Assembly (NCBI RefSeq): GCF_008365385.1 | Contig: NZ_QOVF01000001.1 | Coordinates: 1,302,001-1,366,000, forward strand | Reading direction: 5' to 3' | Source: Halopseudomonas laoshanensis | GTDB taxonomy: Bacteria; Pseudomonadota; Gammaproteobacteria; Pseudomonadales; Pseudomonadaceae | Length of the DNA stretch: 64,000 nt | Shown here: piece after piece, positions 1 through 11,280 of the stretch | Numbering within the stretch: position 1 is the stretch's first letter | Layout: every line of letters starts with the position of its first letter | Made by a program: the position numbers and the translations under genes | Notes under the pieces: generated by a model | Told to the model about the DNA's origin: nothing | Database searches by the model: none | Seen by the model: the letters and a program-made list of their open reading frames with translations, nothing else

Positions 1-2
1 AC

Positions 3-962
3 AACCCCTTGATCGATCTGGTACCACCGCAAGGCATCAAGCTCACGCCCCGCCACTACGCCTACCTGAAAATATCCGAAGGCTGTAACCACAGCTGCAG
101 CTTCTGCATCATCCCCAGCATGCGCGGCAAACTGGTCAGCCGCCCGATTGGCGATGTGCTGGGTGAAGCCGAGCGCCTGGCCAAGGCCGGCGTGAAGGAA
201 CTGCTGGTTATCTCCCAGGACACCAGCGCCTACGGCGTTGATATCAAATACCGCACCGGTTTCTGGAACGGCCGCCCGGTCAAATCACGCATGACCGAAA
301 TGTGCGAAGCGCTTAGCGAGCTGGGCATCTGGGTACGCCTGCACTACGTTTACCCCTACCCGCACGTAGATGAACTGATTCCGCTGATGGCCCAAGGCAA
401 GATCCTGCCGTACCTGGATATCCCCTTCCAGCACGCCAGCCCGAAAGTGCTCAAGGCCATGAAACGCCCTGCCTTTGAAGACAAGACCCTGGCGCGCATC
501 AAGAAATGGCGCGAGATCTGCCCGGAGCTGACCATCCGTTCGACCTTTATTGTCGGCTTCCCCGGTGAAACCGAAGAAGACTTCCAGTACCTGCTCGACT
601 GGCTGACCGAAGCCCAGCTCGACCGCGTCGGCTGCTTCAAATACTCCGCCGTCGAAGGCGCCCCCGCCAACCTGTTGGCCGACTCAGTACCTGAAGAGGT
701 CAAGGAAGAACGCTGGGAACGCTTTATGGCTCACCAGCAAGTGATCAGCAGCGCGCGCCTGCAGCAGAAGATCGGCAACGTGATTCAGGTAGTGATCGAC
801 GAAGTGGACGAAGACGGTCCTATCGGCCGCTCCATGGCCGACGCCCCGGAGATCGACGGCAACGTCTATATCGACACCGAACAAGACCTGCAGCCAGGCG
901 ATATGATCACCGTCAGAGTCACCGACGCTGATGAATATGATCTTTGGGCTGAGCAGATCTAA
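3..962 (+). CDS. rimO: Ribosomal protein uS12 methylthiotransferase RimO (5' end missing)
   Basis: Radical-SAM methylthiotransferase that modifies the conserved aspartate of ribosomal protein uS12 in the cytoplasm. The visible part starts just before the radical-SAM cluster motif CxxxCxxC (within [16 protein letters not shown]), runs through the SAM fold ([10 protein letters not shown] segment) and ends with a TRAM domain (about the last 65 residues, containing [19 protein letters not shown]). The N-terminal UPF0004 domain lies left of the window. The reading frame stays open to the window edge, and the TTG at position 9 is an internal leucine codon, so the gene is cut by the edge and is not short. 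A hairpin follows 33 bases after the stop. Confidence 0.96.
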
Positions 963-994
963 CCAACACCGCCCCGCGTCAACGGCTCCCTGCA

Positions 995-1017
995 AATGGC
1001 CGAGCCCCTCGGCCATT
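995..1017 (+). terminator. Hairpin after rimO
   Basis: Perfect 10-bp inverted repeat AATGGCCGAG / CTCGGCCATT with a 3-base CCC loop, 33 bases downstream of the rimO stop. The stem is strong but no T-run follows, so termination here is likely but not certain. Confidence 0.6.
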
Positions 1018-1439
1018 AATCAGTTCCACGACGCCCGACATTTTCCCCGACACAAACCTTGGCACCACCAAAAAACTCCGGCACTATCCAGTGACTGCAA
1101 GCCCGCTTGTCAGCACCCTTCCCCTCTCGGCACGGATGCCCGATAAACCCGCCTGCACACAGTTTTTGCATAACCCTGCCATTGCAGGTTCCTGAAGCTG
1201 TGCAGAACGGGCGGTAGCGTGCTTGAACAACGATTACAAGAGCAATTGGCTCGCAAACCGGGATAGAGAGCGAACTCGGTACGGCCATAATGGAGTTATA
1301 TCGAATGCAGTCTAAGGTGCTTAATATAGTAGAGAACGCGTGATGTACGTTGTGGTTTTTATTATAAATTCCTTAAAATAATAAGAACATTAAAACGCTT
1401 ATTAATGATGCGCTCGATCTAATCACCGTTAGGAGCAAC
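1018..1439. other. Intergenic stretch before the accessory island
   Basis: About 420 bases without a convincing gene. The first 270 bases have the GC-rich character of the neighbouring core genes. From about 1290 onward the sequence becomes clearly AT-rich, which marks the edge of the accessory island. The last bases before the next start read CCGTTAGGAGCAAC. This contains a GTTAGG core like the recombination point of integron cassettes and also a GGAG ribosome binding site. Short open frames here (931-1146 +, 1016-1288 -) have no recognisable features. Confidence 0.5.
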
Positions 1440-2672
1440 ATGCATATACCAAGTGAACGAGTCTACTCTGAGATGCGCTCCGAAGCCGCTTCACTTTGGA
1501 TAGTGCCTGCTAATGAAGGTGAAGAAATCGCGATTCTAATTAAAGCACCAAGCTCATCCATAAAAGCATTGATTGCTGGCTGTACCTTAGAGTTTTTATT
1601 TGGAAAGCATAATGAATATCTATGTAACGGTGTGAGAATTCACGATATGCCCGATGCGCCAATATTGATATCTGGTGCACAGCGAAATAATGAAGAGCAT
1701 CGAGCATTATTAAGGCTACTAAACGACCTTACAGGTCCAGTATTTCTTTTCAATGAAATGGATGTATGTCTTGCCTGGACAAATCTAACAATAACTGAAT
1801 CTGATGCAAGCAGGCTAAAGGAAAGTATTGGAGAGAGTTCTTCCATATATACAGGTAATTTTACAAGCGATTGCTCGCATGCACTTGATTGCTTCTGTTA
1901 CTCAGCTGATCAAACAAAAACATATCCAGGTGCTTCATTAATTCCCCTTGAGCTTGTAGGGCCTGGCCTAGAGCCGTGGAGGATTAATAATAATAGCTTT
2001 ATTGGTATTCGCGAGAACCACTCCCTAGTAATAGACGAGAAAAATGAAGGTGAAATTTTCGAGCGTGCTATATGGGCATCACTTGAATCAGTATTTCCAT
2101 TCAATATATATAAAAACCCGAAAGTTATAATTGGTAAAAAAACCAGAGAATTAACCGACATTCTAGCATTTCATCAATATGGCAGCATTTTAATAGAAGC
2201 AAAAGATCTGTCCGTATTTCAGGCGGGGTTTGTACGAGACCAAGAAAGAAGAACAAATGGGGTAAAAAAGCAGATATCGAAAGCAATTAAACAACTCATT
2301 GGCTCAATTAATGCTGTAAAAAGCGGAAGCGATATTTTTGATTCAAGAGGAGATTCAGTAGATATCGTTCGCGACCAACCATTTCACTGCATAATTCTTA
2401 TTACTGAAATGATGCACTGGGGTGAATGGAATGAAATAGAGAAAGAAATTGTGGAGGCAATGAGATCAACCGGCTCATTTTTTAATCTATTAGATTTGCG
2501 TGAATTTATTACCTTGTTAAAAGGCAGCTCTGGTCGCGCAGAGTTGCTCGATTATAATCTAATGGAGCGATGTAAAGCCTTTGTCGAATGCGGCTCTGTT
2601 CATTTGAGAAGCCAGATCGCTCCTAACAATACACTGCAGCCGACGCCAAAAAGCGGCGCGTCTGAGCTTTAA
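1440..2672 (+). CDS. PD-(D/E)XK nuclease-like accessory protein
   Basis: 410-residue protein of no family I can name. What is visible: a probable restriction-endonuclease-like core in the second half, with an acidic helix GEIFERA (about residues 204-210), then ELTD (Asp240) and LIEAK (Glu253, Lys255). Spacing and order fit the D-xn-ExK active site of the PD-(D/E)XK fold. The first 190 residues match nothing I know. Codon and base use is strikingly AT-rich compared with its neighbours, which suggests transfer. The last 15 residues (NNTLQPTPKSGASEL) are encoded by an attC-like site, a pattern expected when a cassette ORF runs into its recombination site. The start is supported by GGAG 6 bases upstream. 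A nuclease role in phage or plasmid defence is inference from fold and context. Confidence 0.75.
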   Translation: MHIPSERVYSEMRSEAASLWIVPANEGEEIAILIKAPSSSIKALIAGCTLEFLFGKHNEYLCNGVRIHDMPDAPILISGAQRNNEEHRALLRLLNDLTGPVFLFNEMDVCLAWTNLTITESDASRLKESIGESSSIYTGNFTSDCSHALDCFCYSADQTKTYPGASLIPLELVGPGLEPWRINNNSFIGIRENHSLVIDEKNEGEIFERAIWASLESVFPFNIYKNPKVIIGKKTRELTDILAFHQYGSILIEAKDLSVFQAGFVRDQERRTNGVKKQISKAIKQLIGSINAVKSGSDIFDSRGDSVDIVRDQPFHCIILITEMMHWGEWNEIEKEIVEAMRSTGSFFNLLDLREFITLLKGSSGRAELLDYNLMERCKAFVECGSVHLRSQIAPNNTLQPTPKSGASEL

Positions 2673-2680
2673 CGTTATGG
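2621..2680 (+). repeat. attC-like integron recombination site
   Basis: Imperfect inverted repeat spanning the end of the nuclease-like gene and the start of the next. The outer arms TCCTAAC (2621-2627) and GTTATGGA (2674-2681) pair as TCC-TAAC with TCCATAAC. The inner arms CAGCCGACGCC and GGCGCGTCTG pair with bulged bases around an AAAAAGC loop. This layout (R''/L''/L'/R' with extrahelical bases) is that of integron attC sites. The right core GTTATGG departs from the GTTRRRY consensus. No integrase gene is in the window, so this would be an orphan cassette site. Confidence 0.55.
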
Positions 2681-3483
2681 ATAAGAAAGTTGAGCAGGCA
2701 TACAAGGAAATGACACTTTTATACCTGAAAGACGAGATCTTCTCTTGGTACCCGCGTACAGAATCCGGAGATTACGCGAAGCAAGATGGCTGGAATAGAC
2801 CGTACGACTATCTTGATATCGCATACAAGATCATCGAGACGCACTCCTCATCGTTCGAGCTAATCGACTGCGTCTCCAACCTGAAAAGAGCAATCGATCA
2901 CCGCATAAAGAAAATATCGACTGACTATCAATTCAAAAGCATGAACCGGTTTGGTCTACCCAAAGAGAGCTTGCAAAAGCTTGAAGCATTGGGTTTGGCT
3001 AAACCCGCGATCATTAAGACCATTACCAGCATCAGAAACGTCGTCGAGCATCAATTTGAAGATCCTCCGGGAGTAGACAGATGTTCAGAATTGGCTGACT
3101 TCACTTGGTATTTCCTTAAATCCACCGATGGCGTGTCCAGAAACATTCCAAACACATTCTTGCTAAGCAATGACTTTGTGAGCGGATACGACGACGAATT
3201 TTGGCTTTGTTTTTCCATTGGCGACGACAAGCTATGGCAAGGTGTCAGTGTCTACGGGTGGGTAAAGGCTTCTCACCTTTCATTGCAGCAAACATCGGAG
3301 CTCAAGATCAATCTTGAGACTCTCCAGATACGAGGGGAAAGTGAAAGAACTGAAATCGATCACCAAGTGCTGGCGGGGCTTAACGGCGATGCACCGCTCT
3401 TTGTTCGGGGCCAATGCTGCTTTACAGATTCAGCCTATGTCAGGCTCATTCATTCCTACTTCTCGGCCGACCGGCATCTTTAA
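2677..3483 (+). CDS. HEPN-like accessory protein
   Basis: 268-residue protein with no exact family recognised. The N-terminal half is helical and contains SIRNVVEHQF, an R-x4-H motif (Arg120, His125) at the end of a helix. This is the catalytic signature of HEPN-fold RNases and HEPN-like nucleic-acid proteins. An earlier helix has LKRAIDHRI. The C-terminal part (about 140-268) is a separate beta-rich region of unknown role. The ATG lies inside the GTTATGG core of the attC-like site, so the gene begins at the cassette boundary with no clear ribosome binding site. Base composition is closer to the host than that of the gene before it. Together with the upstream nuclease-like gene it looks like cassette cargo. 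An RNase or defence role is inference. Confidence 0.7.
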   Translation: MDKKVEQAYKEMTLLYLKDEIFSWYPRTESGDYAKQDGWNRPYDYLDIAYKIIETHSSSFELIDCVSNLKRAIDHRIKKISTDYQFKSMNRFGLPKESLQKLEALGLAKPAIIKTITSIRNVVEHQFEDPPGVDRCSELADFTWYFLKSTDGVSRNIPNTFLLSNDFVSGYDDEFWLCFSIGDDKLWQGVSVYGWVKASHLSLQQTSELKINLETLQIRGESERTEIDHQVLAGLNGDAPLFVRGQCCFTDSAYVRLIHSYFSADRHL

Positions 3484-3569
3484 TTAACTTTGCAGGAGCA
3501 GGTCTTGTCTTTCGCTACCACTTCAACCGCTTATGCCCCTAACCAATCGTTAATCAATCAAGGAAGCGC

Positions 3570-3820
3570 ATGAGGTACTACGACGATATTCTCTCGGGCG
3601 AGGTTATAACGCTTGGACCGCGACAAATCACCAAGGAGGCCTCTTTGCGGTTCTGCAATGAATTCGATCGTCTTCCGGTTCACCTAGAAAAACCAGAAAG
3701 AGCTACGGTGTCGTCAGGTGCAAGCTTGAAACCTTAGGCCAGGATCGCGGCTTAGTCATGTCGGCAACGGTCGATTATCTCCTGGCGTCAAAGCCACCCA
3801 GCTCCGAAACGGCTGATTAG
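3570..3820 (+). pseudogene. MaoC-family dehydratase remnant
   Basis: An ATG at 3570 with AAGGA six bases upstream opens a frame reading MRYYDDILSGEVITLGPRQ, a typical start of single-domain MaoC-like hydratases (usually about 150 residues). It continues to an EFDRLPVH segment resembling the family's FDPQPFH motif and then stops at 3735. A second frame from about 3740 to the TAG at 3818 reads DRGLVMSATVDYLLASKPP, which resembles the usual C-terminus of the family. The middle third is missing and the two ends are in different frames, so this is a deleted, frameshifted gene. It sits directly after the cassette-like genes. Confidence 0.6.
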
Positions 3821-3850
3821 CGCGGCCGGCCGCACTGGGTAGTGCCTCTA

Positions 3851-4294
3851 TTATTCCTTGGCGGCGTATTTGTCTTTCATCAGATAGGCATAAGCCGTAT
3901 TAAACGCAACCTCCTGATAGACCTTCAGATCAGTTTCGGCATAATCAATCTGTATCGGATTGCGCTTCAGTGATTCCTTGATATCGGTCGTGGACATGAT
4001 GATCACGTCCAGGTCGCTGATCAGCTCGATGGCCGCTTCCAGCTTGAAACCCACTGCGCCGCCGGCAAACTTACCCTTCATCGGTCGCTGGCGAATAACC
4101 ACCCGGTCAACCTTGTAATCTTCCATCAATTTGGCAAAGGTCTGCTGAAAGTAGCGCAGCTCGCGGGTGCTGTTGATGTCTGTCAACGTCAGCCGCCGGG
4201 AGCGAAAATCAGGCAGCTCAAAAATTTCGTCTGTCAGCGATAACAAACATACGTTCACGTCATTACTGTTGATTTCAACACCACACACTTTCAT
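3851..4294 (-). CDS. DUF3010 family protein
   Basis: 147-residue cytoplasmic protein starting MKVCGVEINSNDVNVCLLSL, recognised as the DUF3010 family. Its beta-rich N-terminus resembles RNase H-like folds, but no catalytic role is established that I know of. The open frame extends 81 codons further upstream; the chosen ATG at 4294 matches the usual family start and length, and a GGGTG lies 5 bases before it. It reads away from the small DUF3297 gene, sharing a 180-base intergenic region with it. Composition is host-like, so it marks the end of the accessory island. Confidence 0.85.
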   Translation of the reverse strand: MKVCGVEINSNDVNVCLLSLTDEIFELPDFRSRRLTLTDINSTRELRYFQQTFAKLMEDYKVDRVVIRQRPMKGKFAGGAVGFKLEAAIELISDLDVIIMSTTDIKESLKRNPIQIDYAETDLKVYQEVAFNTAYAYLMKDKYAAKE

Positions 4295-4473
4295 AGAGCA
4301 CCCGATTTGGCTAGATGCGCGTATTGTAGCGCAAAATGCCTGGGCATTAGGCTGTCGCCAGCAAAACGCCGCCCAGCGTCGTTGGCGAGCGCTGAAAACC
4401 TTGCGTCCGTTCTTGAGTGCGGATTCTTTACTGTCTAAGATGGTCGCCTTTATTTCCGACTCAGGGCCACCGC

Positions 4474-4722
4474 ATGACCGATACCAAATCGCTACCACCT
4501 CTACCGGATCGACTCTCGAGCAATCCCCGTAGCCCACATTATGTAGAAGCGATTTTCGAGAATGATGTTGGCATCATGCTGAACGGCAAAGAGCGCACCA
4601 ACGTTGAGGAATACTGCATCAGCGAAGGTTGGATCAAGACCCCCTCCCCTAAAGCATTGGACCGCCGCGGCCAGCCGCTGCTGATCACGCTGAAGGGCAC
4701 GGTTGAAGCCTTTTACAGATAA
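4474..4722 (+). CDS. DUF3297 family protein
   Basis: 82-residue protein beginning MTDTKSLPPLPDRLSSNPRSP and containing NDVGIMLNGKERTNVEEYCISEGWIK, which matches the DUF3297 family of small conserved proteobacterial proteins of unknown function. The frame is open for 19 codons further upstream, but the ATG at 4474 gives the family's usual start. No membrane segment or signal peptide. Followed 64 bases later by the DUF1456 gene on the same strand. Confidence 0.82.
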   Translation: MTDTKSLPPLPDRLSSNPRSPHYVEAIFENDVGIMLNGKERTNVEEYCISEGWIKTPSPKALDRRGQPLLITLKGTVEAFYR

Positions 4723-4786
4723 CTAGAACCCGTACTGCAGTTAGCCTTTGAACACGTTTGGCTTATCTGAAACCAGGAATTGCAAC

Positions 4787-5269
4787 TTGACCAACAACGA
4801 TATTTTACGCCGCGTACGTTATACCTTTGACCTGAAAGACAGCACTGTGATCGACATACTCGCCTTGGCCGATACGGAGGTGACCGCAGAGCAGGTAGCT
4901 GGCTGGTTGAAGAGAGAGGACGACGATGGCTTTCTGAAGATGAAAGACGTTGAAATGGTCGCTTTTCTGAATGGTTTTATTAACTTCAAGCGTGGCAAGC
5001 GTGATGGCGCGCAGCCGCCGCTGGAAGAACGCCTTAACAATAATATGGTGCTGCAAAAACTCAAGATCGCTCTGAATTTGCAGGCCGAAGGCGTTTTGCA
5101 CCTGTTGGAGCTGGCCGACTTCCGGCTGAGCAAGCACGAACTAAGTGCTTTTTTCCGCAAGCCCGGCAACAAGAACTACCGGGAATGCAAAGATCAGATC
5201 CTGCGCAAGTTCTTGCTCGGTATGCAACTGCAAGCAAGACCCGGTGAGACTGACCCAGAGTTAGAGTAA
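4787..5269 (+). CDS. DUF1456 family protein (YehS-like)
   Basis: About 160 residues with two repeats of a DUF1456 unit: NNDILRRVRYTFDLKDSTVIDILALA near the start and NNMVLQKLKIALNLQAEGVLHLLELADF in the middle, each followed by a TAEQVAGWLK- or SKHELSAFFR-type helix. Same architecture and length as E. coli YehS; function unknown, cytoplasmic. I chose the TTG at 4787 because AGGA lies 9 bases before it and it gives the family's N-terminus; the more distant TTG at 4748 adds 13 unrelated residues. It ends 41 bases before the end of the convergent katG, with a shared hairpin between them. Confidence 0.86.
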   Translation: MTNNDILRRVRYTFDLKDSTVIDILALADTEVTAEQVAGWLKREDDDGFLKMKDVEMVAFLNGFINFKRGKRDGAQPPLEERLNNNMVLQKLKIALNLQAEGVLHLLELADFRLSKHELSAFFRKPGNKNYRECKDQILRKFLLGMQLQARPGETDPELE

Positions 5270-5279
5270 AGCTGATCGT

Positions 5280-5304
5280 CGGCGGCACCCAGAGGGCGCC
5301 GCCG
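5280..5304. terminator. Hairpin between convergent DUF1456 and katG genes
   Basis: CGGCGGC-A-CCC, loop AGA, GGG-C-GCCGCCG: 10 base pairs with one mismatch. It sits in the 41-base gap between two convergent genes and so could serve both. No T-run on either side. Confidence 0.5.
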
Positions 5305-5310
5305 CGAGCA

Positions 5311-7915
<2,605 letters not shown>

Positions 7916-10117: not shown

Positions 10118-10126
10118 GGAGAGCGT

Positions 10127-10732
10127 GTGAGCTCTGGGCACGATTTTGAGATCTCTGGAAAAACCCCGGTTGCTGAAGAAGTAAAGCGGCTCGGATTTAA
10201 TCGTTTTATGGCACTCGCCGAGTATGTCCGCGACCTGCCGTACGGTAGACCCTTAGACAGCGAAGACATTTTGGCGCCGCTGAAAGAAAAGCGCGGCACA
10301 TGTAGCTTCAAACACCGCCTGCTCAGTACCGTGGCCGATGACTGTGACCATAGCGAGGTCAAACTGATTGTGGGTCTTTATGAGATGTCTGAGCGTAATA
10401 CACCCGGCGTTGCAGCCGTTCTGGATCGTGCAGGCATTGCCTGGATTCCCGAGGCACACTGCTATCTTCAGATTGATGGCCAGAGATACGACTTTACGGG
10501 TTTGAGCAGCGGAGGCAGCTCCCCTTTTGAGTCATTGCTGCAAGAGCATATCGTCGCCCCGGCCCAGCTTCACGATGAAAAAGCCCAGCTGCATCAGGAC
10601 GTAATAAGCAGGTGGGCCAAGAGCTATGATTGGTCTTTTGAGGAAGCATGGGCACTGCGAGAGGACTGTATTAAAGCGTTAGGATCTAACAAAGCACACC
10701 AGCCACCCGCGGACTTCCGCCACTCCAGTTGA
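10127..10732 (+). CDS. Small transglutaminase-like (Cys-His-Asp) protein
   Basis: 201 residues. KRGTCSFKH (Cys59), PEAHCYLQIDG (His111) and QRYDFTG (Asp122) form a Cys-His-Asp order typical of the transglutaminase/protease-like fold. No signal peptide or membrane segment, so cytoplasmic. Starts at GTG 10127 with AAGGAGAG close upstream, 9 bases after the HIT gene, so the two are probably cotranscribed. I do not recognise a named family; an amidase, peptidase or transferase role would be a guess. The C-terminus is Lys/His-rich and looks disordered. Confidence 0.7.
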   Translation: MSSGHDFEISGKTPVAEEVKRLGFNRFMALAEYVRDLPYGRPLDSEDILAPLKEKRGTCSFKHRLLSTVADDCDHSEVKLIVGLYEMSERNTPGVAAVLDRAGIAWIPEAHCYLQIDGQRYDFTGLSSGGSSPFESLLQEHIVAPAQLHDEKAQLHQDVISRWAKSYDWSFEEAWALREDCIKALGSNKAHQPPADFRHSS

Positions 10733-10753
10733 CCCGCAGACCGAGTAACGAGC

Positions 10754-11119
10754 ATGGAATTTCAAACAATACCTATTTTGCGAATTTTCGATGAGCAAAA
10801 AGCCAGGGAGTTCTACGTTGAATTTCTTGGTATGAAGGTGGATTGGGAGCACCGTTTTGAAGCGGATTTTCCTATTTACATGCAAGTATCGATGGGTAAC
10901 CTTGTATTCCATCTTAGTGAGCACTCCGGAGACTGTACTCCGGGCGGCAAGGTATTCGTTAATGTCAGCGATCTTGACTCGCTCTACCAGGACATCGCCT
11001 CCAGACCTTACAAGTACAGCAAGCCGTCTATTGAGCAGGCACCCTGGGGTGACCGATGCTTTACCGTGACTGATCCATTTTCGAACCGGGTGCTCTTCAA
11101 TGAGCCACAAAAGGTCTAA
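10754..11119 (+). CDS. VOC superfamily (glyoxalase-like) protein
   Basis: 121-residue VOC protein of the bleomycin-resistance-like type: IPILRIFDEQKAREFYVEFLGMKVDWEHRF at the start, a GNLVFHLSEHSGD middle and WGDRCFTVTDPFSNRVLFNE at the end, the last carrying the usual metal-ligand Glu of the fold. It starts 21 bases after the transglutaminase-like gene and may end the same transcript. Antibiotic resistance is not implied by the family name. Confidence 0.85.
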   Translation: MEFQTIPILRIFDEQKAREFYVEFLGMKVDWEHRFEADFPIYMQVSMGNLVFHLSEHSGDCTPGGKVFVNVSDLDSLYQDIASRPYKYSKPSIEQAPWGDRCFTVTDPFSNRVLFNEPQKV

Positions 11120-11280
11120 GCGATCCATCGTTGATCGTCAGGTGCCAAGCGTGAACGGTCTGTTCGAGAAGCAGATCTGTCTTACGAACTTTGCTCACAG
11201 CTATACCGTTATAACAAGACTGCACCACACCCGGCTCCTCCCGTAAAATGCGGCTTACGGTTTTATTGGAGGGCTTGGTA

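Follow-up and report, generated by a model that had tools for sequence, protein, structure and literature searches.

The window analysed here is a stretch of 64,000 nucleotides from Halopseudomonas laoshanensis (contig NZ_QOVF01000001.1, positions 1,302,001 to 1,366,000), a genome close to that of H. pelagia CL-AP6 (G011). It opens with the 3' part of rimO (1–962, plus strand), an open reading frame with Radical_SAM and TRAM_2 domains that is conserved in relatives, and the locus of interest is closed on its far side by a DUF3010 gene on the minus strand (3851–4291). Between these flanks, all on the plus strand, lie a leader, an attI core, one gene cassette with its attC site, a second presumed cassette, and a pseudogene. 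The GC content is about 0.59 in rimO, 0.36–0.40 in the first gene and 0.45–0.47 in the second, which bears out the sharp change in composition that an earlier, sequence-only reading of this DNA had reported between the two genes. That reading described a small array of the CALIN type inserted next to rimO, with no integrase, and with three consecutive open reading frames starting at GTTA-containing boundaries; it missed the leader with its promoter-like and ops sequences (1059–1221) as well as the attI. The sequence does contain all three boundaries (GTTAGGA at 1428, GTTATGG at 2674, GTTAATC at 3549), and two of them are supported, the one at 1428 as an attI junction, but the third comes without an attC. 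A search of window positions 1000–4300 against Rfam gave no match.

The junction at 2621–2680, claimed to fold like an attC, was scored with a covariance model, the check that had been proposed for it. The model was trained on 22 sites, taken from arrays of relatives and from a different contig of this genome, with the window site left out, and both it and the attI patterns used below were built in this analysis from the same genus. It returned 20.4 bits for 2621–2680 (E 0.013 over 141 kb and, once the filters were switched off, E 0.00033 over 3.5 kb), the sole match in the 64-kb window. The site is not listed at E ≤ 1 in the genome-wide scan and scores below most attC sites of the same genome; taken alone, this score is modest. 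The bottom strand of 2618–2682 is predicted to fold into an attC-like hairpin, as claimed, with an unremarkable fold energy (z −1.35) that is by itself weak evidence for an attC. A stronger test than the model score is provided by the cassette itself, as the R'' box of an attC should pair with the first bases of the cassette to which it belongs. The R'' box here, GCTCCTAAC (2619–2627), is the exact 9-bp complement of the start of cassette 1, GTTAGGAGC (1428), and among the 778 GTT sites on the plus strand of the window no other reaches 8 bp. The same complementarity, in runs of 8–13 bp, is seen in most cassettes of an array on another contig of this genome (C13). Because R'' complements the GTTAGGA-side start at 1428, cassette 1 is assigned to 1429–2674, and by the criteria of sequence 2621–2680 qualifies as an attC, its R' box completed by the start of the next cassette. 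The first open reading frame (1440–2672) terminates in ...NNTLQPTPKSGASEL within the attC, so the placement of the first gene's tail inside the junction was correct. It has been worth asking whether an integron is needed at all, or whether AT-rich foreign genes were gained by another route and happen to end in a chance attC-like hairpin. The fold energy, the modest score and the missing genome-wide listing would all suit such an origin, but the 9-bp complementarity coincides with an independent model match, an attI core is present, and sister genomes carry intI at the same place, so that we find this explanation scarcely credible.

The protein of cassette 1 (410 aa) matches PF08378 (NERD) with an E value of 0.0017, which is under the family's cut-off, and shows a D-x11-E-x-K motif by eye; our guess is that the product may be a nuclease, possibly a defensive one. 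Searches with this NERD-like candidate against relatives, viral contigs, plasmids and phages recovered no related protein, and its gene was not found in any of the 37 relatives searched. The sequence-only reading had named, as grounds for giving it up, the lack of an attC hit and a gene order conserved as a vertical block; instead, the attC match is there, and none of the 37 relatives carries the cassette gene. What follows is presumably cassette 2 (2675–3483), whose own attC is not recognisable and whose open reading frame (2677–3483, 268 aa, function unassigned) had no family match and no match among the genome contigs, with two weak matches (36%) on Vibrio plasmids. PADLOC matched neither cassette gene, and AlphaFold models of the two proteins, made without an alignment, have mean pLDDT values of 34 and 38, too low for use.

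The third boundary was rejected as an attC: the stretch CCCTAACCAATCGTTAATC (3537–3555) has R''- and R'-like boxes with nothing attC-like in between, scores 4.5 bits, and may be the scar of an attC deletion. Behind it, gene 3 (3570–3819, MaoC-like by eye) consists of pieces that match an intact 162-aa open reading frame on another contig of the genome (C10) as well as open reading frames in relatives, which identifies it, by these matches, as an internally deleted pseudogene.

The rimO site is an integron position in two sister genomes. In H. pelagia CL-AP6, an integron integrase lies directly behind rimO (TIGR02249, 412 bits with a cut-off of 265), and the order is rimO, intI pointing to rimO, attI, cassettes, and DUF3010 at the far end. 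In a sister genome, G041, the interval from rimO to DUF3010 holds an N-terminal fragment of intI, the same attI type and an attC; a rho-like open reading frame, so called by eye, lies there between the attI and the attC-bearing gene (L206, 4598–5617). No intI fragment was found in window positions 1–6000 and no IntI in the whole assembly, whose 16 contigs may hide one, the only matches being two Xer-like recombinases. With an intact or truncated intI at rimO in the sisters and none here, the locus is a known integron position now without an integrase, and it is best described, from its sequence, as a docking site with a captured gene, the remnant of an integron that lacks its integrase. The claim of an integron-derived locus with no integrase thus holds, on the attC model, the complementarity and the lack of IntI in the genome. 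As a separate observation, G041 lacks window positions 10118–11242 although it is otherwise collinear. Part of this segment is 67% similar to a gene of the cassette region between rimO and DUF3010 in G041, and behind this part come the sequence GATCTAACAAAGC, which resembles the 5' half of an attC, and a small open reading frame that looks glyoxalase-like by eye; the segment is probably a second former cassette pair in the window.

The genus has two IntI lineages, one found at rimO and the other at purL, which are about 47% identical. Most purL integrons have the attI core TCTAATCACTG^TTA in common, and ATATAAATG^TTA is the core common to those with an IntI of the rimO lineage. In the window, the core TCTAATCACCG^TTA (1418–1431, cut between 1428 and 1429), of the kind common to intI-bearing purL-type integrons, stands exactly at the start of cassette 1; it has a single substitution in the core, and its 5' part has diverged. 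The sequence upstream of it, from ops to attI (1222–1417), occupies the place of intI in the intI-bearing relatives and aligns with other platforms that have no integrase; this alignment and the shared core together make the GTTA boundary at 1428 an attI junction. A single cassette could also have been put beside rimO at a chance secondary site of the attG kind, by an integrase encoded elsewhere, with 1418–1431 being merely attI-like. Such insertions by integron integrases are an established phenomenon (mentioned in PMC12444791), and the locus has just one clear attC. We hold this to be very unlikely, given that the core TCTAATCACCGTT at the junction is accompanied by ops at the platform spacing, that the intervening segment aligns with other platforms, and that the sisters carry intI at this very place.

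The leader itself contains, at 1209–1220, an exact copy of the 12-mer GGGCGGTAGCGT, which we identify, by the E. coli ops sequence, as the ops element. It is untranslated, lies upstream of the cassettes on the cassette strand, and has the position that ops takes behind intI in relatives. When placed in an untranslated leader, ops recruits the antiterminator RfaH (PMC2871177). Further upstream is a promoter-like pair, TTGGCA-17-CACTAT (1059–1087), whose −10 end lies 121 bp before ops. This is a consensus match only, as is the pair that forms the best match 95–125 bp before ops in each of the 38 integron-linked leaders examined, where the mean score is 5.96 versus 5.13 in shuffles. We had first taken the leader for a structured RNA or for the end of a module; what pointed to ops was that the same 12-mer also fronts native loci, some of them beside rfaH, together with Rfam JUMPstart matches at these native loci, under the gathering score.

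The association of ops with integrons extends over the genus. In 21 of its 22 IntI loci the sequence extends past intI and could be tested, and ops was found in 16 of these (14 with an exact 11-bp core, two with one mismatch), always on the cassette strand, opposite to intI, and 29–36 bp past the point where the intI match ends. The loci without ops include two with class 1-type integrases. Outside the genus, none of about 49 loci with at least 300 bp behind intI has ops within one mismatch, in a set that takes in neither Stutzerimonas nor further integrons of close Pseudomonas. The 12-mer was counted 130 times in 37 genomes, as against 36 for a reversed control. Of 115 distinct sites examined, 20 lie beside intI, whole or fragmentary, and another 18 have an attI core at 186–318 bp and no intI; the remaining 77 have no match to the attI patterns, although six show diverged attI cores by eye. 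In all, at least 24 more ops–attI modules have no intact intI nearby. A few of the 77 have an attC in their vicinity, and many of the rest fall inside long open frames and are probably there by chance. Other ops sites have a different upstream motif that is common to native loci, including those beside rfaH and polysaccharide-type genes. The genome of the window encodes two RfaH proteins above the TIGR01955 cut-off, and control of the cassettes by RfaH is predicted. A link between RfaH and integrons was not found among the open-access titles and abstracts listed, a search outside which most subscription journals fall, and its novelty is therefore provisional.

In the platforms that have no intI, the distance between ops and attI hardly varies among platforms of one attI type, whatever the locus or species, and most of these platforms are followed by an attC on the same strand. 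Two of them are in the genome of the window. The first, on contig C13 behind purL (L013, 8925–18285), has an exact ops, a rimO-type attI and several attC sites running toward the contig end, with no intI; the second, on contig C9 (L203, 9600–12921), has ops, a diverged attI and an attC, also with no intI, and G041 has a platform (L257) at the apparently orthologous place. Counted with the window, the genome thus has at least three arrays led by an attI and no visible integrase. Two details of the C13 array may be recorded here: one of its cassette proteins (L013, 14928–15737) matches the PADLOC candidate family PDC-S31, and at about L013 13315–13330 a cassette end, GCATAAATAAATG^TTAGGG, stands in place of a full attC and resembles the rimO-type attI core, so that it is possibly an attI-derived cassette end. 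H. pelagia has a second platform behind YehS (L096, 6600–8750), about 10 kb from its rimO integron, with a broken remnant of intI, an attI and an attC, and the nearest match found to the leader in the window is that of this platform (84% over 178 bp).

The purL platform occurs without intI in three species, whose sequences align up to the attI cut and show no match past it. This pattern would be expected if differing cassettes had been inserted at an attI that was already without intI, by an integrase acting in trans; the IntI at the rimO locus of H. pelagia has an attI type that matches the purL platform without intI. Alternatively, intI may have been lost independently after the cassettes had diverged, which would need matching breakpoints.

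On another account, the window holds an ordinary decayed chromosomal integron that has lost intI and most of its cassettes, and ops is a leftover or incidental feature with no role in cassette expression. The truncated intI at the rimO site of G041, the pseudogene, the diverged attI and attC of the window and a genome without IntI all speak for decay, but ops is exact here, holds its position in the two IntI lineages as well as in many platforms that have no intI, and is separated from attI by a near-constant distance across loci, which makes this account unlikely to us.

With regard to known systems, the locus resembles CALINs and single attC sites without an integrase in having an attC-bearing cassette and no integrase nearby. 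A CALIN usually requires at least two attC sites in IntegronFinder (PMC12444791), and the window has one clear attC; it differs further in keeping the attI core and the leader, at a place where the sisters have intI. Of the CALIN-type array proposed next to rimO, the missing integrase was right, but the intI that H. pelagia has intact and G041 in truncated form at this place makes the rimO side a true integron position. Seen as a chromosomal integron, the locus has an attI at the start of its array, recognised by sequence, and lacks intI in cis. In Xanthomonas, sedentary chromosomal integrons lie beside ilvD, and further CALINs are found at other conserved loci (PMC12444791). The fixed site by a housekeeping gene, the loss of the integrase and the extra arrays without integrase elsewhere are alike; the difference is that the arrays described here carry an attI and a common ops leader at several places, purL and rimO among them. 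In operons under RfaH and ops (PMC2871177), as here, a 12-nt ops lies in an untranslated leader after a promoter-like pair and before foreign genes, in a genome that encodes RfaH, whereas the genes downstream in our case are integron cassettes. Finally, the core layout CTAA-spacer-GTTA with a cut before TTA is similar to that of attI1 and IntI1 of class 1, whereas the attI sequence differs, and the class 1-type loci of G021 (L091) and G049 (L098), where the integron integrase is preceded by a class 1-type attI1 sequence, have no ops behind intI.

From the sequence evidence, that is the attC, the attI junction, ops, the RfaH genes, their association across the genus and the lack of intI where the sisters have it, we consider it probable that the window holds a worn chromosomal integron platform without integrase, which belongs to a dispersed family led by ops and would be transcribed from its leader with RfaH as antiterminator. 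The cassettes would have entered attI at the G^TTA point through recombination by IntI. Transcription would start in the leader, RfaH would join the RNA polymerase at ops, and termination would be suppressed through attI and into the cassettes; in the relatives that bear intI, this transcript would cross that gene in the antisense direction. As no IntI is visible in the genome, its set of rimO cassettes is probably frozen.

The distribution of these leaders points to docking sites of this kind being spread over the chromosomes of the genus behind an RfaH/ops signal. Copies of the unit of leader, ops and attI occupy several places in the chromosome, some accompanied by intI and some not, so a single IntI could act in trans on several of them. 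We give about even chances to the wider proposition of a multi-platform system, in which each genome would have promoter–ops–attI modules behind several housekeeping genes, one integrase acting in trans, and arrays antiterminated by RfaH, with a transcript antisense through intI. How the long and largely promoterless cassette arrays of chromosomal integrons are transcribed is poorly understood, and the genus-wide presence of ops before arrays offers a concrete and testable answer, antitermination by RfaH, that would tie integrons to the control of other horizontally acquired operons. If attI platforms without an integrase of their own are truly dispersed in this way, then integrase-less arrays could be read as satellite docking sites, and not just as ruins.
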